DNA of 64,000 bases from Polytrichum commune (taxonomy: Eukaryota; Streptophyta; Polytrichopsida; Polytrichales; Polytrichaceae). Shown here piece by piece: positions 11,926-43,876 of the stretch (position 1 is the first letter of the stretch; the number at the start of each line of letters is the position of its first letter). Made by a program: the position numbers and the translations under genes. The notes under the pieces were generated by a model. It was not told where the DNA came from, searched no databases, and saw nothing but the letters and a program-made list of their open reading frames with translations. The DNA lies in the NCBI GenBank assembly GCA_950295325.1, contig OX485809.1:4340001-4404000 (forward strand). Reading direction: 5' to 3'.

Positions 11926-12212
11926 GTATCCTTGTGCCGCAAATCTTCACAATTTATGTAACATGGAAGCCTAGGCACCCATATTATGTCAGATGTGCAC
12001 AAGCTTGATGTCAGTCACTGGTCATTCCTTGATCAACCATCCTATTGCTCTCCATTTCTCCTGTTTCCAAAGATTCTACTACCTTGGACAGAAAAATTCT
12101 TTGCTTCATTCTTAATTACCAGCCTTTGACGCATTTCTCCACAATTTTCAAGCTTGAATTGCACAGATATATTAGGAATCCAAGTGCCACAAGCTTTTAC
12201 AAATCATGTACA
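11896..12212. repeat. Short internal direct repeat, ~70 bp, offset ~240 bp
   Basis: CAGTTTTCAATCTATTGCAC at 11898 is matched by CAATTTTCAAGCTTGAATTGCAC at about 12140. Both are followed by GATTAGGTATCCTTGTGCC-type and TATTAGGAATCCAAGTGCC-type sequence. The pair bridges the end of the CACTA relic and the nicotinamidase-like fragment. Confidence 0.55.
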
Positions 12213-12269
12213 GATATATTCACAGATGGTATCTCAGTTCTTTTGGCATGTTGCTTTGTTTTTTCTGCA

Positions 12270-12565
12270 ATGTGGAGTGATAAGCTTGTTGGGCCAAAGC
12301 ACACCTACAGTGCATTCCACGACACAGATCTGGAGAGCCATCTCAAGGAGCTTGGAAAGACTGAGGTGATCATCACTGGAGTGATGACAAACTGCTGCTG
12401 TGAAACAACAGCTCGCGAGGCTTTCATCCGAGGTTTCGTGTCTGCTTCTCAACAGATGCGACTGCCACTTGCAACGAGGATCTTCATCACAGCACCTTGA
12501 AGACTCTGGCTTATGGATTTGCATACCTGGTCGACAATGAGAAACTCACTGCCGCATTGAAGTAG
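12270..12565 (+). pseudogene. Nicotinamidase / isochorismatase-like gene, 3' fragment
   Basis: The fragment reads [19 protein letters not shown], then [20 protein letters not shown] (about 12365-12425). After a one-base deletion around 12435 a second frame continues with [17 protein letters not shown] and [17 protein letters not shown], ending at the TAG at 12563. This is the C-terminal half of the isochorismatase-hydrolase fold as in plant nicotinamidases NIC2/NIC3, which deaminate nicotinamide in NAD salvage. The CCET motif holds the catalytic Cys. The N-terminal half, with the catalytic Asp and Lys, is not seen upstream. The missing part and the frameshift make it a pseudogene, unless upstream exons are too diverged to spot. 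Confidence 0.75.
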
Positions 12566-31329: not shown

Positions 31330-31667
31330 GATTTAGGATCTAAAGTGGTCACGGTTGGAAGTCCAAAGACCATGTCACTTTTTCAAAGCTTTGGTAACCC
31401 AACGGAGAGTGAAGGAAACTTAAACCGGGGTATAGTGTTTAAGAAAGAAAGAAAAAAATCAAATTGAGATCTTTCTAAAACTTAAGTAGTGTTTCAATGA
31501 AATCATGCTATATATATAGTATATTTATCTTTAAAATATGTTTTATTCTTCTGATGTGGTATCTTGTTTGGGATTTCTTGTTGCGAAATTTGAATAACTA
31601 CCAAACATTATTCATTTATGAACATGTATGATTCCATGTTAATTTCTCATCCGTTTTCTTAACATGT
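31330..31667 (+). repeat. Left part of repeat 'R', interrupted by the retroelement
   Basis: GTCCAAAGACCATGTCAC, CAAAGCTTTGGTAACCC, AACTACCAAACATTATTCAT and CATGTATGATTCCATG correspond to the first two thirds of the R copies at 28.6 and 59.5 kb. The homology stops at the target duplication 31668-31679 and resumes at 43889. Confidence 0.8.
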
Positions 31668-31679
31668 TGCCCATGATCA

Positions 31680-31840
31680 GATAGATAGAAACTCCGGTCC
31701 CTTTTAGGGGCCGGCGTGAATAGAGTGTCCGTTCGTAATGCCAACAACCCGATGCCCACAGGACATGGGGAAGCTGGGACAAAACTACTCTCCTCTTTCG
31801 AGGATGGACACTATAGTAACCAAGAAACAAATAACGTGGG
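31680..31840 (-). repeat. Structured 3' end of the retroelement
   Basis: The stem CCGGTCCC-TTTTA-GGGGCCGG lies at 31692-31712, 12 bases from the insertion edge. Upstream in sense direction a second palindrome, GTGGGCC-GATCAT-GGCCCAC, lies near 31837-31857. The sequence between (ATGCCCACAGGACA, CTCTTTCGAGGATGGACACT, CAAGAAAC) matches the 28.0-kb element read in reverse. Stem sequences differ between the two elements while pairing is kept (CCGGTCCC/GGGGCCGG against TCGGTCTCC/GGAGACCGA). This suggests the fold is selected, most simply as the site recognised by the reverse transcriptase. Confidence 0.65.
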
Positions 31841-32121
31841 CCGATCATGGCCCACGGCGGTGCATGCCTTTTAGGTATAATTAATGTTTTTGTTATGAGA
31901 GTGAATGCCAAGTCATGATTCGTCGGTTGGTTGTGGGAGGATGTTTGAGTTAAGACGTTCCAGGTTCGATTTCAGTCGAGTCCGTATGATCGTCTAAAAT
32001 GTAACGCGTGACTTGGCGCTGCAAGTGAGTAAAAGGCAGGAAATTTGTACCAACCAACCGGCACCAATCCCTCATTCTGAGCTGTAAATAGATACTAAAT
32101 ATTATATAAGTTTTTTGGGTT
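31841..32121 (-). other. 3' untranslated region of the retroelement
   Basis: This lies between the last readable ORF2 stop and the structured end. GTCGGTTGGT (31922) and ACCAACCAACCGG (32050) form an inverted pair. GGTTCGATTTC near 31971 resembles a Pol III B box, but no matching A box was convincing. Confidence 0.5.
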
Positions 32122-32860
32122 TTATGGAGGGTCTAAGTTTTGGGGGAGCGGTTGGTGGTTTTCAATTCTCCTCTTATGGAGGAGGATGGACATGGCATAT
32201 TGTATTGCAATGGTATTAATGTTTTTAAAGGTATTTTTGATGGTAACCAGGGGTATTTTGAGATTTTCTTCTAGTATTTTCATAGATGGGATGTGGGCCG
32301 TAGCTCAGGCCCCAGCTGTGATGACAATAAGTGGTTCGATTTTCCATCCTCTGGAAGCGATACTATCAATCAAAGGTTTGTATTTGTTGTTTTTTGCTTC
32401 TATTGTTTTTGGGGAAAATCTGTCGTTACAATACGTGAATTCAATAAATTGTATGGTGAGGTTAGGGTCAATGTCAATGGGAGGGTCATTTTGATATGGT
32501 AATCCTTTAACACAGAGTATATCAGGTCGAAATCTTGCGTTGCAATGACATCTTTGTGTGTTACATGTGCAGGGGAGTAGCCAATTGGGGACTGTATTTT
32601 CTTGGGGGTTATTATTGAAGGTACCGGCATTCATGAGAGTAAAACATCGGGATTTTTCGGACGAGATTAGAAGCTTCCTAATTTCTCCGACTGCTTTGTT
32701 ATGTCTTTTAATTCGTAGTGAGTGTATGTGTTGTTGGTTGCATTTCAGTAGAACATGTAGCCAAGTGTTTGGATCGTTTGAATTGCATATAGGGCATGTG
32801 ATAGAGGGGTACCTCTGGTGACCGAAGAACATTTGTTTTCTAGCATTACCCATGTATGTT
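32122..32860 (-). pseudogene. ORF2 C-terminus: zinc knuckle and restriction-like endonuclease
   Basis: From about 32800 the sense strand reads CPICNSNDPNTWLHVLLKC, a CCHC-type knuckle as found before the restriction-like endonuclease of R2-group elements. About 80 residues on come RPDILCVKGLP, then IQFIEFTYCNDRFSPKTIEA and KNNKYKPLIDSI. The RPD, E and K..KY positions fit the PD-(D/E)xK nuclease core. A TGA at 32305-32307 interrupts a GA-x-AT stretch that continues with HIPSMKILEENLKIP and INTIAIQYAMSILLHKRRIE, as expected for the end of this domain. The domain would nick the target DNA. A stop also separates it from the RNase H part (near 32862). Confidence 0.75.
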
Positions 32861-33640
32861 CATGTGCGGAATTTAATAAGGCAGGATTTTTGTTTGTCTG
32901 TGATTAAGGGATTTGTCCAGAATTCGTTGGACAGTTCTTTGTCAATGTCTATATTTTCTGTCCATTTACACGTGTTGGGGGTTTGTGTGGCCATGATTGC
33001 TATATTGGTTTCCCTATCATATTTTTTAATTTGTTTTTCTAAGAATCTTACTGGGCCTTTGTCTGGGACGTCTGCCATCGAGGCCCAGACGTCCTTTTGG
33101 TAATAGTACGGGATGGCGTGGGCATGTTCGTATGGGTGGATGGCAATTCTGTGTTCTAATTCTAACCCGTCTTTTGCTAGTTTATCCGCTTTTTCATTAC
33201 CGTCAATGTTGACGTGTGCTCTGACTTTGTATAGTGTGATTGGCTGTGTACGGTCTTGGAGGATTTTTACCATGGAGTTGAGTGTGGTTTGGTCGGGGTG
33301 ACTATTATGGAGAGTGGGGTGTTTAATTTGTGTGTTGAGTAGGTATAATACGTTTAGACTGTCTGTGAATATGAATGCGGGTTCATTAGGGAATTTTGTA
33401 TTGATGATTCTTAGTGTTTTGTGTATAGCCATCATTTCTGCACGTAGTATGTTTTGATGCCCATGGAGTCTTTTGGCGATATTTAAGCCTTTGGGGCTAT
33501 AGATACCGTATCCAGCTCTTTCTCTTCTTCATACCCCAGGGGCAATTTCTTTGGGTTTTATAAAGGAACCATCCGTGTAGTAGCTGAACTGGGGGTGGAA
33601 TTTTAGCGGTAGATTAGTGTGGTAGTTTGGAAGTTGTGGG
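32861..33640 (-). pseudogene. ORF2: RNase H domain
   Basis: The sense strand reads YYTDGSF (about 33570), GYGIYSPKG, NILRAEMMAI (about 33450), FIFTDSLNVLYLLN (about 33370), ITLYKVRAHVNIDGNEKADK (about 33200). The acidic set D, E, D and the D of NEKAD, with HVN in the substrate loop, are the RNase H catalytic residues. All are present. An in-frame stop lies between GSF and GYG (about 33528). RNase H would remove the RNA template after first-strand synthesis. About 190 further residues to 32861 form a linker of unknown function. Confidence 0.85.
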
Positions 33641-33766
33641 GTAGGGGTATTATTGTGTGGGATTGTATTTGGGTAGTTTGATTTGGCCCATTTTTTACTA
33701 GGGTTAACGGTGATGTTTGGAGGGGTGGGTGGTGCAGTTTGTGTGTGACTTTGTAGTATTTGGAGG

Positions 33767-34888
33767 TTATTTGCTGTGTCGTAATTTCATTTGTTCGTAG
33801 GTGCCTATGTTATTGTTTTGGTGATGGATACAAAATATTTGCATGGTAGATGGTTCTTTTTTTGTGATATTAAGCTCGGGGGGTATTGTGGATTCCTCAT
33901 ACGTGATTGTATCAGCGGCGAAATGGGCAATGACGTGTGTATCTGGGAATGGGCCTGTGTATGGGTTGGAGTTTTGGTACCAATTAGTATCCGGAGATAT
34001 AAGTATAGTGATTGTATATGGATCATTTTGGGCCGCTATGCGCACCCAGTGAATAACTTGTTGTAGGTCTGTTGTATTATGAGGGTGTGCGTAACCAATT
34101 CCTTGCCATTTATGGTCAAACGCTTTACCTAGGGATCCAAATATTATGTCTCGCGAGAATGGTGAGTAGAATTGGATGAATTGTGTGGGGCATGTAACTG
34201 GGGATGAAAAATATGAGTGGTTAATATTGAATGTTGTAATCAGGAGATCTAATATTTGGGTTGGTATTGTATATTGGGCTCGTTTGAGTGGGTCATTTTT
34301 TGGGATACGGTATTTGTACCTTTGGTATAACCAAATAATTTCAGTTTTGAACGATTGGGTAGATGGTTCTAGACCGTGTGTGTTGTTTTTTGCCAATTGG
34401 TATTGTTTCCATAGCCATGTTAGTCTAGCTTTCGGGATGGTAATGAGGTGTCGGCCATTATCTTCGTATATGTGAGCGACATCGAATTGTGTTTGGATGG
34501 TATCAGAGTTTGTTTCGATGTCGTTTTCTGGGTTGCATTTATTAATAGAGATATGTGCTAGTGGAATTATTGTGGTTGGTGTGACGTATCTTGTGTCTCT
34601 ATGTTGTTCTGTGGAGAAGAAGACATTAATTATGTTTGAAAAATGTTTGTGTTGTCTTTCTTTGTAGTAATGGATAAGTAGGTCTGTGTTGTGATTACAT
34701 GTGTTGGCTTCACAGTAGGGGTATAGGTCCCTTTGAGTTCGCCATTTGTTATATGTGTTGTTATTTATTGTAGTCCATTGACATAAGTACGACGTGACTG
34801 TTCTTTTTATTCCGTTATGGTCATTGGATTGTTTTTGTTTATGATCGATTATTTTGTGTATGGAGAATTGTCGGGGGTCTTTAAGCAT
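33767..34888 (-). pseudogene. ORF2: segment resembling a PCIF1-type methyltransferase domain
   Basis: This 373-codon uninterrupted stretch lies between reverse transcriptase and RNase H. Its C-terminal part reads TQFIQFYSPFSRDIIFGSLG, then GIGYAHPHNTTDLQQVIHWV, TITILISPDTNWYQN, FPDTHVIAHFAADTITYEES and TMQIFCIHHQNN. The order of an F-YSPF.RD..FGS-like block, a short x-N/H-P-P/H turn, a hydrophobic strand ending in P-W and a terminal hydrophobic strand parallels the methyltransferase fold of PCIF1, the cap-adjacent adenosine N6-methyltransferase. Here AHPH stands where PCIF1 has its catalytic NPPF, so activity is doubtful. The assignment is from pattern memory and is the weakest domain call in the element. 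Confidence 0.4.
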
Positions 34889-35260
34889 GTTCTTGGGAGG
34901 AGGGGGTAGAGGGGGGTGGGGATGTTAGGGGGGTGTACGGGGGCGGTTGGTGGGTGTGGTAGGATATTGTGGTGTCTTATTATATATTTATTTTTTAGGG
35001 ATCTTGGTGGATGGTGTTGTTGGCATGGTAGGGGGCATTGATTACAAAGGGGGGTGGCAAAATAATTGATTAGCTATGTTAAGTGCACTTTTGATAAGTT
35101 TAGAAAGAGTGGAGTGGTAGATTTTGAATTCGTCCGGGTTTATTATAGTGGTACCATTAGGCATGGTAATTTGGTCTAGTGTGATTATATTATGTACAAG
35201 TAGTTTGTGGAGTAATTTAAGTGAGGTGTTGGGATTTAGTCCATGAAGCATTTGTGCTTC
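34889..35260 (-). pseudogene. ORF2 linker, with clustered stops
   Basis: The same frame as the flanking parts continues through this stretch, but stops fall near 35042, 34985 and 34925. The low-complexity run rich in Pro and Thr (about 35000-34900) was probably a flexible linker. Confidence 0.5.
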
Positions 35261-37200
35261 CTACATCCATGCAGTTTCAAGTGGGGATGGGGTTAGTAGG
35301 AAATTGTTTATTGTACTTTTTAGGTGGACTCCGGCTTTATGTTTGAGCAAGAATAATGTTCTAGTCATGGGTGATCTAATGCAGTGGTGATATTTAATGC
35401 GGGTGATTTCCTTAGAGCCCCCGTATTTGGCGAGTATGAATTGTAGTAGACCAACATATATTTTTCCAATTCTACCTTTATCATTGAGGGCGTTTTGTAG
35501 TTGTTCTCCAATGCATCTTAAATAGGCATTTTGTAGTGAGAATGCTTCGATTCCGAATAGGTTGTGTGGGAGTTGTGTAGCGATGTTAGATGTGCATTTG
35601 GATATTCCGCATATCATTTTGTGAAGTGCTATGATTTTTTTATCGAGTTTTTTGATAGCTGGTATTGAGTATGGCACTGCGTAAAAGCTGTATGCTATTC
35701 CAGCACGTATGACTGTATCTGCCATGTTTATTTTTTGTTTCATAGTAGCTGGGCATGTTACAAGGGTTTGACACTGTTTTATTACTTTAGCTGTAGTGGT
35801 ATTTATTTGCGTTTTTCATTTGAATGATGGTGCAAGATTTATTCCTAGATACGTGTATGGTTCATGTTGGTTTAAGACTAGTATAGGTTGGTTTCTGTAG
35901 TTGATATTGGTAGATTGAATTAGGGCTTTAAAGGTTGTGGGGTGAAGTTTGGATTTGTTTGGGCATCCAGTTATTGTGCACTTGGGTATTCTAAGATCCA
36001 TTTCTGCCCATTCGCAGAATTTATCTAGTTTGTTGAGTTGTGTTTGTAGTGTCTCTAGTTTATTGGCGATTGCTGCTAGGTCATCTGCATATGTTGCTGA
36101 TGAGATTTTAATTTTAGATGTACCAAAAATATATCCATTATTCCCTTGTTGTAGCCATCTGAGGAGGGGTTATAGGAATATGATAAATAGATATGGGCTA
36201 AGGGTATCACCTTGTATTGTACCTCTTTGAATGGGGATTGGTAGGGTTTTACCGAAGTGTTCACCAGTGAATATTGTTGAGGATTGTGAATATATGTTTC
36301 CTATGAAATTTATAGAGTCAGTGGGATATCCCAGATCTTTTATTATGGCTAAAAGTCTGGCGTGATCAATGGAGCCGAAGGCGTTTTTGAAGTCAATGTA
36401 AAGGATATATATATCTTGGTTCGTGAGTCTTGCGTTTTCAAGCGCTGCGATTAATAGTTGGATTTGTCTAGAAGTATTTCTCTCTGCTCTAAACCCTTCT
36501 TGACTATCGTGTAATATTTGGTATTTTTTTCCATACGTTGATAGGATAGAAGTTAATGTACTCGTGTAAAATTTATATATGATGTTAGCTAGTGTAATAG
36601 GTCTATGGTTTGTTAGTTGTGATGGGTTACGTTTTTTGTATAGTAAAACTGTTAGACTGGTTTTCCATGATGCAGGGATTTGTTTTTGTTTATAACAATG
36701 TTTAAAAAATAAGAAGAGTAATTTATGGAAGCGTGGAGGCATGTTTTTTAGAATTGAATTGGGTATTTTGTCTGGGCCTGGGGCTTTGTTATTACTTAGG
36801 TTTTTAAGACAAAAGTCGTATATTTCTTGGTCAAAATACGTGTGTAGGGGGGTTTGGGGTTCTCCTCGTTTGTCAATGATGTATCCGTTTAAGTTATGCC
36901 ATGGATATTGCCGGACTCCACATGTGGAGTGTAGTGGGTGTGTATTTTGATATTGGCATGTGGGAATTGTAGGACGGTTACTGATGAATTGTTGCGTGTA
37001 TATTGCTGCTGTGATGTCTTCTGGGTTAGTTAATATGTTGTTTTGTCTATCAATGATGGAGTCCAGGGGTGAGGTTTCAGTGTTCTTGAAGACTTTTCGA
37101 TTTATTTTTTTGGGGTTTTTTTCATACATTTGACGGTATTTTGATACGGCCTTTAGAATGCAGTCTTTGGTGTATTTTGTGGTGATTTTCCTGGCTTCTT
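35261..37200 (-). pseudogene. ORF2: reverse transcriptase
   Basis: Motifs in sense order are NNKAPGPDKIPNSILK (about 36770), NHRPITLANIIYKFYTSTL (about 36590), QEGFRAERNTSRQI, LYIDFKNAFGSIDH (about 36400; first catalytic Asp), GTIQGDTLSPYLF (about 36215), ATYADDLAAI (36100-36071; catalytic YADD) and YTYLGINLAP (about 35840). These are motifs 1-7 of non-LTR reverse transcriptases. A thumb region with LFGIEAFSLQNAYLRCIGEQ follows. In-frame stops lie at 36170, 35816 and 35261. A frameshift near 37190 joins it to the upstream linker (EARKITTKYTKDCILKAVSK). All catalytic Asp residues survive. This enzyme would copy the element's RNA at the nicked target. Confidence 0.93.
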
Positions 37201-38813
37201 TATTTGCATTTTTGCGATGGTTGCTATGGCATCAACCCATTCAGTAGGAGGTGCCGTTGTAACATGTGGGTGTGGGATGTTTGTGTGTTGATGGTTTCGT
37301 ATATCATTTAGAATGGGGTGTGCTTGCCAGAGTGGATCGTGTTGTGCAATATATATGGTTTTCCTAATGAGGTGATATGTGTTGAGGTGTCTTTTCCATT
37401 TTCTCGGAAGTTTGCGTGGCAAAAACCCATCTTGTTGTGATGTTCTGTTCGTAAGGTTGGGTACTGGGTCTGCTTTACAGGTTTCTTCAATTGTTTCTGA
37501 AATTTTGTATACAATGTGGTCGAATGTTGTACAGGCTTCCGCCCATTGATCCGGGCTTAAGTGTTGGTGGTTTTCGAGTAGGGTGGTAAGGGCTTTTATT
37601 TGTGCAGAGTTTTCTTCGAAGAATGTTATGTTGAATTTTTCAATGTTTTCTGGTGATATTGGGTTTAGTATTCTAATTGGTGACGTGTTTGTGGGGGGTG
37701 GGGATCTGGCTATAAGGGTGTTGTGGGGGATATGTAGTACAACTGGATAATGGTCTGAGTTTAGATTCATGTTTGTGTTTGTGGTAGAAATGAATTTGTT
37801 GTTGTCTGGTGAGTGAATGTAGATCCATCTATTAGACTTGTTGATGTGTAATTATAGCCTCCTTGTCTGGAGATGCTAGTATTAGTTGGGATATATTCTA
37901 GGTTGAGTGATGCGGTGAAAATTTTCCATTGGTAATCTTCTTCTTGTGGAGGGGTGTTAATGTTGTTATTTTGTCTGCCTCTAAGTGCGATATCTCGGTT
38001 AAAGTCCCCACATAATGTATACATGTGATTGGGGTGTATAGTGATTTCGTTAGTGATTTCGTTCTTAAGGTGTGGAATGAGGCATGTGTCTTCTAAGTGT
38101 TTAGGCATGTACATGTTTATGATTAGCCAAGGTATTAGTGGATGGTTGTTTATTTTAATTATTTGTAGGTATGGAGATATATTTACTGGCGTGGGAATTT
38201 TGGTGATATTCCCAGATAATGCATATTTCTTGTGGATAAGCATGAGTAAGCCTTCTCTTCCGGGGGTATAAGGCATTATTTGTTGTATGCATATTGTGAG
38301 TGCATGTGTGTTGTTGAAAATGAGTTTAAATTCCGGAAATAGGTTTTGTATGCATTTTGTAGATTTATTTGCAATTAGTTTGGTTTCTTGAATATGTATG
38401 ATTGTTGTGTTGTTTAGCGAGTTGTTTATTAGGCTTTGTAGGTTTGGTAATGATGTATTGAGTGATGACACATTCCATGTTATTATGTTTGTTTCGTACT
38501 CGGTGTCGGTGTTAATTCTTGGGGTTGGTGTGGGAGTAGTTGGGGGTGGGGGTGGGTGTGAATATTCGTTGATGCTTTCTAGGCATCGGAGTGCTTCGGT
38601 GATGAATTGATTTGGGAGGAATAGAAATTTATTTTGAAGGGTGATTGGTGTTGGTGTAGTATCTTGGTTGTGGATAAATTCATATATGTCTGTGTATATT
38701 GAATTTTTTGGGTATATTATAGCTTGATTATTTTCTACAAACGTTGTGTAGGGGTGAGGTGTTGATATATGCCTTTCGGGGGGGTTGGTGAGGTTGGCCA
38801 GTCTGATAATCAA
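37201..38813 (-). pseudogene. ORF2: APE-type endonuclease and linker
   Basis: The sense strand reads NIITWNVSSLN (Asn, about 38490), IHIQETKL (Glu, about 38400), IINMYMPKH (Tyr, about 38120), LCGDFNRDIA (Asp/Asn, about 38005) and LNSDHYPVVL (Asp/His, about 37760). This is the full catalytic series of the exonuclease-endonuclease-phosphatase (APE) family in non-LTR elements. A one-base frameshift around 37830 lies between GGYNYTSTSLID and the SPDNNKFISTTNT segment. A stop near 38823 separates the domain from the N-terminal part. About 190 residues of linker lead to the reverse transcriptase. Confidence 0.93.
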
Positions 38814-38822
38814 TGTGTTCGT

Positions 38823-39815
38823 TCATATATTATTAAAGTGGTAATTTTGGGGTTGGGCTAGTATGTTATTGCATGTGTCTATTGAGGGGTGGATGGTGAT
38901 GATTAGAGCGTATAGCATATGGGTTAGTGGTGATTGCCTTTGTGTTTGGATATATTGATGTAGATGCGGGTAGGTGGTTATTGCTTGAGGGTGTAGTGGG
39001 TGTTTGTTTTTTAGTATGGGGGCAAATGTATTTGCTATGTGTTGGTATTCAGGTTGTAGTTTTATAGTGTTTGGAATGAAGTAGATGTGGGCTTTTTTTT
39101 TTGGTGTAGCAGGGTGTGTATGTAGGATGTTAGGCATTGGTCCGGGGTTGGATTCTATGTCCCCGCATTTTAGCAATTCTAGTTTGTTAATAAAGTAGTA
39201 TCCGTGGGAATGGAGTGTTTTTGGATTTTTCATGTTTGTTTTTAGATATATTATGATTGTGAACTTGGTTGTAGTAAAGATGTTAGGTATAGTGGGTATG
39301 ATGTTTTCTATTTGTTTGGGTGAGAAGTGTGAGTTTGTATTTTTTATAGATTTTTGGCTTGTTATTGAGTTAGGTCTCCAGTTATTTATGAAGTGGTATG
39401 TGTTATTATTTGTGTGGCGAGGCCGGTAGGCTGAGGCCATTGTATTTTTTGGGTGAGGTTGGTATTTTGAATGAGGGTTTAATAGGTGTTTGATGTTGAG
39501 GTGAGGTTTATTTAAGGTGAGTAGTTTATATTTAGTTTTTGTAAATAGATTAGGTAAGGCAATTATTGTTTTTTGTGTATTTTTTGGGAGGTAGTGTATA
39601 GGTTTAGTATGTTGGTGGGTAGGCTTTGTGATTGTGTTAATGATGGGGTTGAGGGAGTGGTAGTGTATATATCTTGTTAGTTTTATTTTGAGGCGAGGCC
39701 GGTAGGCCGAGGCCGTATTGTGTACTTTGTTGTATTGGATAGGATATTGTTGTATTGTGAGTAAATAGATTTGTTTTTGTGAGGTGTTGGGGGGGTTTTC
39801 TTTGTGAATTTTATG
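38823..39815 (-). pseudogene. ORF2 N-terminus with a 2A-like ribosome-skipping motif
   Basis: The frame appears open from about 39815, the first ATG being at 39440. LLKCGDIESNPGP lies at about 39176-39138, matching the 2A consensus D-x-E-x-N-P-G-P, at which the ribosome skips the last peptide bond. Such motifs are known near the N-terminus of ORF2 in trypanosome L1Tc and several animal non-LTR elements. Here it would release roughly 100-220 residues from the enzymatic polyprotein. The segment MASAYRPRH at 39440 repeats TASAYRPRL 92 codons upstream. The rest is basic and rich in Asn, Thr, His and Pro, with no recognised domain. The TGA near 38823 interrupts this copy. Confidence 0.7.
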
Positions 39816-39950
39816 TCATAGTATTCATGAATACTATAGGTAGGGTTTTATTTTTAGTATATATTAATAATTTAATTGTGTTTTTATTTTTAGTATATAA
39901 ATATACTATAAGTAATTTATAATTATACGCCGCCGGGATGTTTGTCGAAA
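39816..39950 (-). other. ORF1-ORF2 spacer with a 20-bp palindrome
   Basis: AT-rich stretch with several stops in the ORF2 frame. ATAGTATTCATGAATACTAT at 39818-39837 is a perfect palindrome just upstream of the ORF2 opening. TTTTTAGTATATA-like words are repeated around 39853 and 39888. Confidence 0.6.
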
Positions 39951-41570
39951 TTAGTTTGTCAAGTCCATATTGTTTTCAATTTCCGATATGTCTAGATGAG
40001 CCGCTTCGATAGCATTCAAGGTAATCTTCATTTGCCTTTGAAGGAGTTGTATTTGGAGCTTGGAATTTTTGTTTGACTCCGCTTGCACATGGTCGGCATA
40101 AACCTTAGTCTCTTGCACAATCTCACCTTTAAGGTTTAGGGTTTCCTTTCGTATTTCATCCGTCCCCTTTTTTACCGCTGCTTCTACCATCTTGTTGAGA
40201 TCTTTGTTGGTGATGTTTTGATGCGGTCCATTCTCCAGAGCTTGGATGATATTTGCAAGTGCGGTGTTCACGTCTGAAAATCCAAGTCTAACTAGCTCTT
40301 CTTTACTAGGTGCATTTATCCCGTCTAGACTTTTTGGATGGGGGGTAAATTCAACATATTTACCAAATATTTTTTCATTTTTCTTAACAAATTTCTTGTA
40401 GACAAACGAGTTGAGGCATTGGACATTGCATGAGCCCGTATGCTTCCCGTTCTCAAGTCTAAAGTAAAAACCGAGAACATTTAGTTTTCCCATGCATTTT
40501 CGGTTTCCTTCTTCAATTTGCATGGTTGTTTTTACCTTATTGAGGTTACGGGCAATTAGAATGAGTGCATTCTTTCGGGCTTTATCATCTTCTGAGAGTT
40601 TTTCGTTACTTGTAAAGTTTACATCTACTATTTCATTGAAAAACGAAAGTTTGAGTGCTTTAATTCTTTTGGCTTCCTCTGGAGAGGGTGCTTTAATCCA
40701 AACAAACTCTGCATCCGCCGATTTTTGCACATTTGTTATTTCAAAGTCAAGGCCTCGTCGAAATCCATCCCCAACTATTTCTACAAACAAATCATACCAT
40801 TCTTTACCCTTGATTGATGGGGTTGTGACTTTGACGGAGAGCATGGATGCAATTGCAATGGTATCAAAGGATTTACACACTTTGCCTATAACATGTGTAA
40901 ATCGGCCTAGCTTGAGGATGAAAGGTCTTAATCCGCAGAGAAGGCCATATCCATCTATTTCAGGGTTTTTAAGGTGGAGTTTAATAATTCCACTCCATCT
41001 TTTGGTCCCATGAAAACAAAGGACAGCTAAGGGCTCTCCTAGGACTTCCCCGACCTCTATCCTCATTGTTTTTAGTCTATCCTTTGTTAAGTTGAGTATC
41101 ACATCTCTATCCAATTCTATTCTTTCAATTTCAAAATGGATAGATATGTGATAGTCCAAAGCAAATCCATTGTCACCCACTTCCACATCTGAAGGAATCT
41201 GGGTGAGATTATAGTGCATTCCCTCCTTACCATCCGTTCGTATAGAAGGCCACTCTTCTTGGGCAACGAACGGAAAGGAGGGAGATGACTCCACCATTTC
41301 ATGTGCTTCAGACTCATACATACCTTTTTTGACTAACTCAGTGAAAGAAGGTGTTTGAATGAGAGGCATGTTGGCAAATTTTGCAATTGTGTTCATAGCT
41401 TGAAAACCAAGCCAATAGGGGGGGCGTGTTCTCTCAGTGGGTGCTATTCCTTTAACCTTTTTTTGACTTGACAATATCACATCAAACACTGGACGTTTTC
41501 CACTTGTAGAATCTATATTTTAATTTTCAAACAACTTACGGGATGATGAGGTTGGAGTGATGGTTGCCAT
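39951..41570 (-). pseudogene. ORF1 of the retroelement, RNA-binding-like with C-terminal coiled coil
   Basis: The natural start is probably ATG at 41570 (MATITPTSSSRKLFEN). One TAA at 41520 interrupts, after which 512 codons (41489-39951) are free of stops. The middle part alternates strands and basic residues. Residues about 310-395 (ALILIARNLNKVKT, LGFYFRLENGKHTGSCNV, YKKFVKKNEKIFGKYVEF, PHPKSLDG) look like an RRM-type fold as in many non-LTR ORF1 proteins. The last 70 residues are Glu/Lys/Gln-rich with heptad-like spacing, a probable coiled coil for multimerisation. Its position directly upstream of ORF2, in the same reading frame and inside the same target duplication, assigns it to the element. 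It would bind element RNA. It is far less decayed than ORF2. Confidence 0.65.
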
Positions 41571-43876
41571 TCTGATATAAGCAAAACAAACAAACGTTTT
41601 GTACTTTAGTTTTGAATGAGGTATACTTCTTATTTTCTTTCCTCTAATTCCTTTCCACAAATTAAGTTGTGGGCCTCCTAGGAATTGAGAGTGAAAGAAG
41701 AAGTGATTTGCATGTTCTAACATCATATGAGTACTAGTATGAGTACTACTTGCATTCATCCTATGATAACACCTTTTCCTATTCATATGAGTCTTCATAT
41801 TAGTATTTACAAATTGGTTGTAAGTGCTCTTATGTAGATTATGATTTGTCCCAACTCTAACATTCCATACATCTCCTAAGCATTTGAGGCAAGTATAACT
41901 AAAACCACAAGCATTTACCGTTACTACCACGGATCCATTATTTCTAATGGAACATTCATTTATGATATGAACATTAAGGTTGTTATACCATACCTTTGGA
42001 TTTATGACGTACTTATATGTGTTTTTGAAGCAAGAGTTTGTAAGGCATTCCCATGTGGTGTGAGAGTTGACACTATGAGAGTATATCCAGTATGGTGTGG
42101 CTAGTACTAGCCACATAATGATAACAAGGTAGGTTGCATATGCAACCTTCATTTTACTTACTATCCTAACAAACCTATCAATGCTATGATGTGTCTAAGA
42201 CTATGTGTGTGCCTATGTGCAAATAATGAGAAAACAAATTAACGTGTAAACTTACCAAGCGGATGAAGGGCAGCAAAACGACAGTCAGCAACAGCTCCAG
42301 CAGCAACACTTCGCCTTCAATCTCCTTGATGTCCCAACAACTTCTTTTCTTCCCTAGGATAGGATGGCCCTCCAGCAAGTTGAGTTGCTCGTAACGCCTA
42401 GTAGCTCCAGCAGCTCCAAATTTGGTTGGCTCTCCAATTCCGACCAGCTCCAAAACTTTGAGTTGTCATAAGCTCCAGAGGCTCACGGCTCCTGGTAGCT
42501 CTCAGCACGCGGCTCCCGCTTGTAAGTAACTTCAATTTCCTCCTTGGTAGTACGTGGTAGCTCTTCTTGGCAGTAAAGCAGCAGACACAACACTTCTTGG
42601 GTAGCAGGTCAGAATTCTCCGCAGCAGTAGGTCAGAATTCTTCGCAGCAGCGGCAGCAGGTCCGAGGTCTTCTTCCGCAACAGCAGCAGCAGGTCCGAGG
42701 TCTTCTTCCGCAACAGCAGCAGCAGGTCAAATCCTTTCTCCGCAGCAGGTCAAAATTCTCCTTTGTAGCGATAGTGGGTATTAATAAGCAACACCAAATT
42801 TGTGTCTCTGGGTGTCTTTGTAGATCACACCAGCAGACGTCTTCGGATACTAACAACAAGGTACCAAACTACATCAGATCGCAGCGTTAAGTAGGAGCTA
42901 GCACAGATTTACAGCAGGGACTTTGTTCAGCCTAAAATCCCTGGTCTCAAAGGTTTCGCAATGTCTTCAGATCAACAGAGAAAAGGGGGGAGACGTTGGT
43001 GTACAACATAAAACAGTCTCTGTGCAATAGACTGGAGAGATTCGATTTCGGCGAGCAACTTCGGTGTGGTGGGAGGAATTTCAGTGTGGCAGAGCAGATC
43101 TCATCAGCGATCACAGAGTGCCTAGGTTGTGGAGTGCCCAGATCTTAAAGCGAGATCAGGGTGTTTACTTCGTACGCGCAGATTGATAATGCCAGATCGC
43201 AAGATGGTTGTAGAGTGCCCAGATCTCTGAGTACTTCGGTGTTCGGCTTCGGTAGTCTGCTTCGGTGCAGTAGTTGAGTACTTCGGTGATCTGCTTCGGT
43301 GGTCTGCTTCAGTCTGCAGGGGTAGGCGTTTGGTGGTGTAGATTCACAAGAGAAGATCTTCTGCAGGGTACTCGTGGAGTGAGTGCGGAGTGATCTCAGA
43401 GTGTAGCGGCAGAGGCTTCGGTGAAGAATGCTTCGGTGTAGTGGCAGTAGATTGCTGCGGTGTAGAGTGCTTCGGTGTAGCGGCAGAGGCAGGTGTTGGT
43501 GCTGAAGTTTTCTCAGGTGTAGATCTTCAGCAGCGGCGTGGAAGTGAGGACTGAATGATCGACGAAGAGATGGACTGCTGCTTTGGCCCGCTTGTTTTAT
43601 AGAAGGTTTGCAGATGTGTGGGGCCGTGGCTCTTCCATTGCTGAAGGGGCACGTTCGTATCGGGGGTCCGGAGAAGTCGGTGACTCGAGGTCGGAGGAGC
43701 AGCATGCCCACGGCGTGCCGCTTCAAGTCCGTCCAGGTGTCTCCAAGAGCTTCTTTATCCCAGCGATCGCCGCTCACCTCTGGCTCAGGAGCTCCGCATG
43801 GCCTCTCTCAGCGCTCCAGTCATATGCACATTGTTATAGATAATATTCTCTTGTTGCTTGCTACATCATGCTTTAA
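41571..43876 (-). promoter_or_regulatory. Leader region of the retroelement, possible promoter and intron
   Basis: The minus strand has TATAAAAC near 43600. A GC-richer leader follows with degenerate CTTCGGTG/CTGCAG repeats (43200-43510) and 33-bp CAG-rich repeats near 42660-42740. A donor-like GGTAAGT occurs at about 42257. A very good acceptor (TTTGTTTTGCTTATATCAG) ends one base before the ORF1 ATG at 41570. Together they allow a leader intron of about 690 bp. A 210-codon frame (42152-41520) runs through that interval. It starts with a signal-peptide-like stretch and reads into the ORF1 frame, and whether it is translated is unknown. Confidence 0.45.
42600..42760. repeat. Tandem 33-bp CAG-rich repeats
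   Basis: AGGTCCGAGGTCTTCTTCCG recurs at 42658 and 42691, separated by CAACAGCAGCAGC. Shorter GCAGCAG-GTCAGAATTC relatives flank it. It lies within the leader of the retroelement. Confidence 0.8.

Follow-up and report, generated by a model that had tools for sequence, protein, structure and literature searches.

The 64,000-nucleotide stretch of Polytrichum commune DNA analysed here (assembly GCA_950295325.1, contig OX485809.1, positions 4,340,001 to 4,404,000; hereafter the window) carries on its minus strand what is very probably a broken copy of a non-long-terminal-repeat (non-LTR) retrotransposon with two endonucleases. The element is of Dualen-like design and belongs to a family that has lately been multiplying in this non-flowering land plant. 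The copy was delimited by blastn against 11 fetched sibling copies, with which it has in common a block of about 10.7 kb running from 42362 to approximately 31679. Six other fetched copies fixed the 3′ limit at 31664-31681. The 5′ end of the block is not sharp; it was set by the two closest siblings, a1 (from 42362) and a2 (from 42343), which are 96.3-96.4% identical to the window copy and are the only ones to share the 5′ part (about 39500-42362) over its whole length. The block comprises a first open reading frame (ORF1), an ORF2 that opens with a leader and a 2A-like motif, and a 3′ untranslated region (UTR; 31679-32121) ending in a CTAT repeat. An earlier note on this DNA, made from the sequence alone, had placed the element at 32122-38813. 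This span is too short: it covers ORF2 from just upstream of the first endonuclease to its end, and it lacks ORF1, the leader, the 2A-like motif and the 3′ UTR.

The host genome searched comprises 407.8 Mb in 64 contigs, and in the nucleotide and profile searches only the top-ranked candidates were scored. Its gene content is that of a non-flowering land plant: Dirigent, a land-plant family, has 41 matches above the cut-off, and a plastome contig of 146,561 bases carries rbcL next to accD as well as a match of almost full length to the NifH/chlL family (1.3e-112), plastid chlL not being known from flowering plants. The best 150 of 4,750 candidates for the C-terminal region of ORF2 match at 85-100% identity, the best 115 of 1,847 candidates for the reverse transcriptase (RT) region match, and the best 40 of 2,046 candidates for the 3′ end (31679-32300) match at 96-100%. 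In two pairs of copies the identity reaches 99.3% and 99.7%, across 10 and 12 kb. Judged from these sequences, the family is large and appears to have been recently active, with many young copies ending in CTAT repeats. Family matches are present on every one of the contigs C1-C7, so contamination is unlikely and was rejected as the source of the element. A different origin would be horizontal transfer from an alga into the plant, in place of an old land-plant lineage. Dualen/RandI elements were listed in 2015 for green algae only (PMC4438587) and occur in all species of a Chlamydomonas comparison (PMC8226300), and a repeat annotation describes LINE/Dualen (LINE, long interspersed nuclear element) as expanded in cryptophytes except Guillardia theta (PMC12747079). 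Against such a transfer stand the spread of the family over each of C1-C7 and the presence side by side in the genome of two or more lineages whose ORF2s are about 43% identical, which is suggestive of either a long stay or more than one entry. We regard a transfer from algae as unlikely.

The first endonuclease is of the apurinic/apyrimidinic (APE) type and lies at 37684-38447, with a frame change within the window copy. It was recognized by tblastn and alignment, and by Pfam in two siblings. The catalytic glutamate lies in QETKL (38376-38390), followed by GDFN (37992-38009) and SDH (37750-37761). In the alignment ETKL, GDFN and SDH are conserved in all 13 rows, and the tyrosine preceding MP is found in 12 of them; row d10, whose start is missing, has a stop at the tyrosine position. 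Pfam scans were run on ten pieces of the window and on the four intact sibling ORF2s L001, L004, L005 and L027, the last of which represents the second lineage. The window copy reaches Exo_endo_phos_2 with a sub-threshold E-value of 0.029, while two siblings exceed the curated cut-offs, L005 for Exo_endo_phos (1.3e-5) and L027 for Exo_endo_phos_2 (9.7e-8). It counts against the assignment that the intact ORF2s L001 and L004 have no match to an APE family at E up to 0.1.

The second endonuclease is predicted at the C terminus of ORF2. A CCHC zinc knuckle of the form CX2CX9HX4C (32740-32796), found by alignment and tblastn, is followed by a putative restriction-like endonuclease (RLE; 32125-32706) with an RHNK helix start, an extra CxC/CxC cluster, RPD (32512-32529), a glutamate (32422-32445), KX2KY (32377-32394) and GW. 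C termini were recovered from 17 of 18 sources, L039 giving no match. The alignment and profile A5 hold ten of them, which belong to two lineages with 42-49% identity between lineages; not included are L002, L003, L009 and L011, which are close to retained rows, the copies with a broken frame, L008 and L010, and L037, whose PD motif has G for D. Invariant in A5 are the knuckle, R-H-x-K, the extra cysteine cluster, the D of PD, the E, KX2KY and GW, and the P of PD is kept in nine of the ten rows. A recount extended to all 17 C termini found the D of PD in 16 of them and the knuckle, RHxK and KX2KY in every one. The pattern used for the E in this recount is too narrow for the second lineage, in which the residue is visible in the alignments. 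In L008 the pattern did not find the E in the open frame, and it is present in the pieced-together translation. The extra CxC..CxC cluster directly ahead of RPD (32512-32580 in the window, and in siblings) is conserved and could possibly form an additional zinc site.

These residues agree with most of those listed for R2-type RLEs. The description names a CX2-3CX7-8HX4C knuckle, H and K opening helix 1 (RH in R2Bm), a PD-(D/E)XK core whose catalytic lysine is displaced to KX2KY of helix 2, and a GXW motif (PMC5678591). The order of knuckle, RH helix, PD, E and KX2KY is the same in the element. Profile A5 was also compared with PDB at E up to 10. The two matches, chains 8gh6 and 8ibw, are titled 'Reverse transcriptase-like protein' and are presumably R2Bm. 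They align over chain residues 940-978, with TAHILQQC opposite the end of the knuckle and RHNK opposite RHNK, and the match at these residues is suggestive of a relationship.

Several observations weigh against an RLE at this place. The E-value of the R2Bm match is 0.75 and not significant, and with profile A4 the same R2Bm stretch receives a second-domain score of -1.3 bits. The one-lineage profile A1 found no nuclease in PDB, its single match being a terpene synthase (E 1.1). The C terminus is not covered by any Pfam family; DUF4177 appeared at 0.11 or worse in two of eight members, which is chance level, and the window pieces gave no Pfam match for this region. A single-sequence AlphaFold2 model of the window RLE is poor, with a predicted local distance difference test (pLDDT) score of 37.9. 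The spacing between PD and E is 27 residues, compared with 13 in R2Bm (D996 to D1009), and in L037, a copy of the second lineage, the D of PD is replaced by G. The knuckle, moreover, has X9 instead of the described X7-8, and the GW lies ahead of the last strand, whereas the described GXW follows it (PMC5678591). It might therefore be argued from the lack of a significant profile match to any RLE, from the extra cysteine cluster just ahead of RPD and from the loss in L037 that the C terminus is a zinc-binding nucleic-acid module with no nuclease activity, and that the element is a LINE of the APE type whose RT is R2-like. We hold this to be improbable. None of the ten rows departs from the D of PD, the E, the K and Y of KX2KY, R-H-x-K or GW, in spite of an inter-lineage identity of only 42-49%, the ratio of nonsynonymous to synonymous substitution rates (dN/dS) of the knuckle and RLE region is 0.095, and the motifs follow the order of the R2-type description (PMC5678591). 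The conserved residues thus support the identification of the C terminus as a putative R2-type RLE.

The RT domain lies at 35795-36814, with YADD at 36080-36091. In the window copy RVT_1 is matched twice, at 4.4e-17 and at 2.3e-6, the second match falling below the cut-off; the intact siblings match at 1.1e-29 (L001), 1.5e-29 (L004), 3.9e-27 (L005) and 1.4e-32 (L027). With the RT profile the top matches in PDB are R2 chains, 9nl2 at 9.7e-33 and 9nl3 and 9dou at about 6e-31. Further down the list are 8c8j (1.6e-19), which we take to be human L1, and R2Bm (5.2e-19); that R2Bm scores no better than the L1 chain counts against the reading of the element given above. An unrooted RT tree was built from 23 rows, comprising ten Dualen-like sequences, ten other non-LTR RTs of the host, assumed to be L1-type, and three R2 sequences. 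The Dualen-like rows form a clade of their own (100/99), and the other host RTs are set apart (100/100). R2 falls on the Dualen-like side, and its branches are long.

The RNase H domain at 33130-33609 is of the D-E-D-H-D type, with its residues in YTDGSF (33562-33579), RAE (33430-33444), FTDS (33352-33369) and AH..GNE.AD (33184-33225). PF00075 is matched at 1e-12 in the window and at 7.3e-13, 3.6e-12, 1.5e-14 and 1.3e-14 in L001, L004, L005 and L027, respectively. The D-E-D-H-D type, with its H retained, is seen in all ten rows shown. In the archaeal-like RNase H of plant L1 elements, R replaces this H (PMC4640811). These results bear on the possibility that the element is an ordinary plant L1 with an acquired RNase H, whose remaining motifs have been over-read. 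Plant L1 elements with APE, RT and RNase H are known (PMC4640811). The element nonetheless differs from them in an RT clade apart from the ten other non-LTR RTs of its host (100/100), in an RNase H of the H and not the R type, and in the RLE residues at its C terminus, and an L1 of this kind is very improbable here.

All motifs named in the earlier note, namely those of the APE, YADD, the RNase H, the CCHC knuckle and RPD...E...KY, were located on the minus strand. Its central claim, that a single ORF of a land-plant element combines two unrelated endonucleases with an RNase H, is upheld by Pfam, by the conserved residues and by the intact ORF2s of sibling copies. In the window copy itself the single ORF does not exist, as ORF2 contains several in-frame stops and changes frame at least three times. 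In siblings ORF2 is one uninterrupted frame, with 2,625 aa in both L001 and L002, 2,663 aa in L003, 2,924 aa in L004 and 2,919 aa in L005; these five copies represent three sequence groups. An open-frame listing of the C-terminal matches revealed a third copy with a 2,625-aa ORF2, and L027 likewise has one ORF2 frame, of 2,372 aa and 43% identical. The breakage of the window copy into several frames could have pointed to a chimera of an APE element and a neighbouring RLE element created by nesting or assembly, an explanation with practically no chance left, since it is refuted by the single ORF2 frames of L001-L005 and of L027 and by the Pfam domains found in order within one frame in the four intact siblings scanned. 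The profile searches that the earlier note had proposed came out positive for RVT_1, for RNase_H and, in two siblings, for APE; that for the RLE was weak alone, R2Bm being its sole match in PDB.

Selection was assessed from the dN/dS of the ORF2 segments. For the pair a1/b2 the values are 0.070 for the APE, 0.060 for the RT, 0.069 for a PCIF1-like domain described below and 0.062 for the RNase H, next to the 0.095 already given for CCHC+RLE, and the leader stands out with 0.523. Between groups a and b the segments other than the leader have dN/dS of 0.06-0.11 at synonymous divergence (dS) of 0.43-0.64. More distant group pairs have dS near saturation; among those with finite values (a-c and b-c), the leader is again least constrained. 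For the pair a-e27, dN/dS ranges from 0.27 to 0.55 across segments. Both nuclease regions are under purifying selection, and their low dN/dS indicates that both have been kept by selection.

The element contains three further parts that the earlier note does not mention. The first is the 2A/StopGo-like motif GDIESNPGP at 39138-39164; the window has no other NPGP in any of its six frames. The motif follows the fast-evolving ORF2 leader (39204-39812), which was delimited by tblastn and dN/dS. GDIxxNPGP is found near the N terminus of ORF2 in all 13 copies read. In L027 a further 2A-like motif, GDIQPNPGP, is seen from about position 2112, in another frame and upstream of the one at the ORF2 start. 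The LINE L1Tc has its 2A at the N terminus, before the APE. The 2A core is given as (D/G/C/N)(V/I)ExNPGP (PMC12846837), and nine of the 13 copies, including that of the window, fit it; two copies have K and two have H in place of E. Natural 2A sequences in non-LTR elements are known from trypanosomes and other species (PMC4981915). The element shares with these LINEs the 2A-like motif and differs from them in LINE lineage and host. The available parts of PMC12846837 give no evidence of natural 2A use by plant viruses, and no land-plant LINE with a 2A was found in the parts available of the literature on 2A elements. The motif would be a putative natural StopGo element in a plant genome.

The second part is a domain resembling the PCIF1 methyltransferase (34091-34387). 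PF12237 (PCIF1_WW) is matched in the window at 5.3e-11, with 42.8 bits against a cut-off of 31.1, and in the siblings L001 (3.6e-10), L004 (1.3e-10) and L005 (2.9e-12); L027 remains below the cut-off (3e-6, 27.4 bits). PF12237 is found at E up to 1 in each of the seven sequences of A2, with 1.5e-13 as the best value, and the top score among the best 150 matches scored in the host genome is 55.6 bits. The catalytic motif of PCIF1 is NPPF. In the alignment to solved PCIF1, HPHN-type residues stand opposite this motif; HPHN, HPHT or HPPN occupies the position in the ten rows shown and another sequence in L027. In the window HPHN is found at 34076-34096, just beyond the Pfam stretch. Weighing against the assignment, PCIF1 in PDB reaches only E 0.019-0.95. 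A single-sequence AlphaFold2 model of the region is poor (pLDDT 33.8). The third part, at 34724-34864 with SYLCQW at 34775-34792, is tentatively called chromodomain-like. All four PDB matches of profile A6 are CDY-family chromodomains at E 0.35-0.68, which are related sequences and not independent. Pfam Chromo is weak, with matches in two of seven members (best 0.13), in the window at 0.11 and in L027 at 0.12.

ORF1 lies at 39951-42194, interrupted by one in-frame stop, and spans 747 aa from stop to stop in two siblings. Its window pieces are without a Pfam match at E up to 10; elsewhere among the copies there are weak matches alone, to zf-C3HC4_5 (0.035) and Spectrin_SESTD1 (0.14). The alignable part of ORF1 is 30% identical between groups a and b and 39% between a and c, whereas the ORF2 segments downstream of the 2A are 87-94% identical between a and b. 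The DNA similarity of the window to group b starts abruptly at 39493, a short way upstream of the 2A-like motif. The discordant relationships of ORF1 and ORF2 and this abrupt loss of similarity suggest that the 5′ module has likely been exchanged between families a, b and c. At 42606-43480, upstream of the block in common with the siblings, the window contains short tandem repeats with periods of 13-33. In the genome, 42380-43900 matches, apart from its own place in the window, three stretches of 234-246 bases that are 76-81% identical and six shorter ones of 55-77 bases. The repeat stretch may be a variable 5′ UTR of the element.

Three other features of the window lie outside the element. 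A 380-aa open frame at 55737-56879 matches glycosyl hydrolase family 53 (7.2e-77). An open frame at 12033-12500, probably one exon, matches an isochorismatase domain (7.4e-16). A weak RVT_1 match at 2056-2760 (0.009, below cut-off) is perhaps a relic of another retroelement.

From these parts a route of transposition can be proposed. The full-length transcript would be translated, and at the 2A-like motif the ribosome would release the leader and resume at the proline, so that the enzyme part starts cleanly. In R2 elements a nick made by the RLE in the target provides the end from which the RT primes (PMC10499050). By analogy, a ribonucleoprotein of the element would nick the target strand and prime reverse transcription at the nick (target-primed reverse transcription), and the RNase H may clear the template. 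The second nuclease might open the opposite strand or a different class of site. As to the order, our guess is a first nick by the RLE, as in R2, and a second by the APE. The PCIF1-like domain, having no NPPF, could serve to bind the capped RNA of the element and not to methylate it, which is likewise a guess. Taken to its full extent, this picture would be of a land-plant lineage of dual-endonuclease LINEs that uses both nucleases in one insertion cycle, each for its own strand or for different sites, is targeted to marked chromatin by the chromodomain, holds its capped RNA with a PCIF1-type domain that is catalytically dead, releases its enzyme by a natural plant 2A and is a living intermediate between RLE and APE elements, enlarged by targeting and RNA-handling parts of its own; we put it forward tentatively, as a possibility that is more doubtful than not.

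Among known systems the element is closest in its described design to Dualen/RandI, which also combines APE and RLE in one element (PMC4640811, PMC3636483) and has an RNase H (PMC4640811). The 3′ end formed by a short tandem repeat is a further likeness, algal RandI ending in (ATT)n or (CTATTT)n (PMC3747384). The element differs in its land-plant host. It also carries the 2A-like motif and the PCIF1-like and tentative chromodomain-like segments, which Dualen, known to us by description only, may share. No cysteine protease was detected: Pfam gave no protease family in the four intact ORF2s, and a simple pattern search of the same four found no OTU-type motif. This weighs against the Dualen-like assignment, as the founding Dualen paper reportedly describes a cysteine protease in the element, a feature that may not be defining. 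With the R2 group (R2Bm, R2Tg) the element shares the RT, whose best PDB matches are R2 chains, and the CCHC followed by an RLE with an RH helix and KX2KY; it differs by the addition of an APE, an RNase H and a separate ORF1, and the flanks of the seven 3′ junctions compared have no common sequence. The label Dualen-like is thus supported at the level of predicted domains, by likeness to a described design, and membership of the Dualen/RandI clade is a possibility.

No relatives were found in viral contigs (profiles A1, A3 and A7) or in genome contigs (profile A7). In the accessible portions of the literature, whose coverage leaves outside supplements, preprints and most subscription papers, neither a Dualen element from a land plant nor a LINE with a PCIF1 domain was found. 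Within this coverage, what is new is a Dualen-like design in a land plant, with parts that are not mentioned for Dualen. APE-bearing LINEs are thought to have replaced older RLE-bearing ones, and the argument rests on Dualen (PMC4640811). A young and abundant land-plant family in which both nucleases are under selection suggests that the dual-nuclease design is stable and reaches beyond the algae from which it has been reported. The family also provides material for asking which nuclease cuts which strand, and its PCIF1-like domain, selected without the catalytic motif, suggests another role for the PCIF1 fold.

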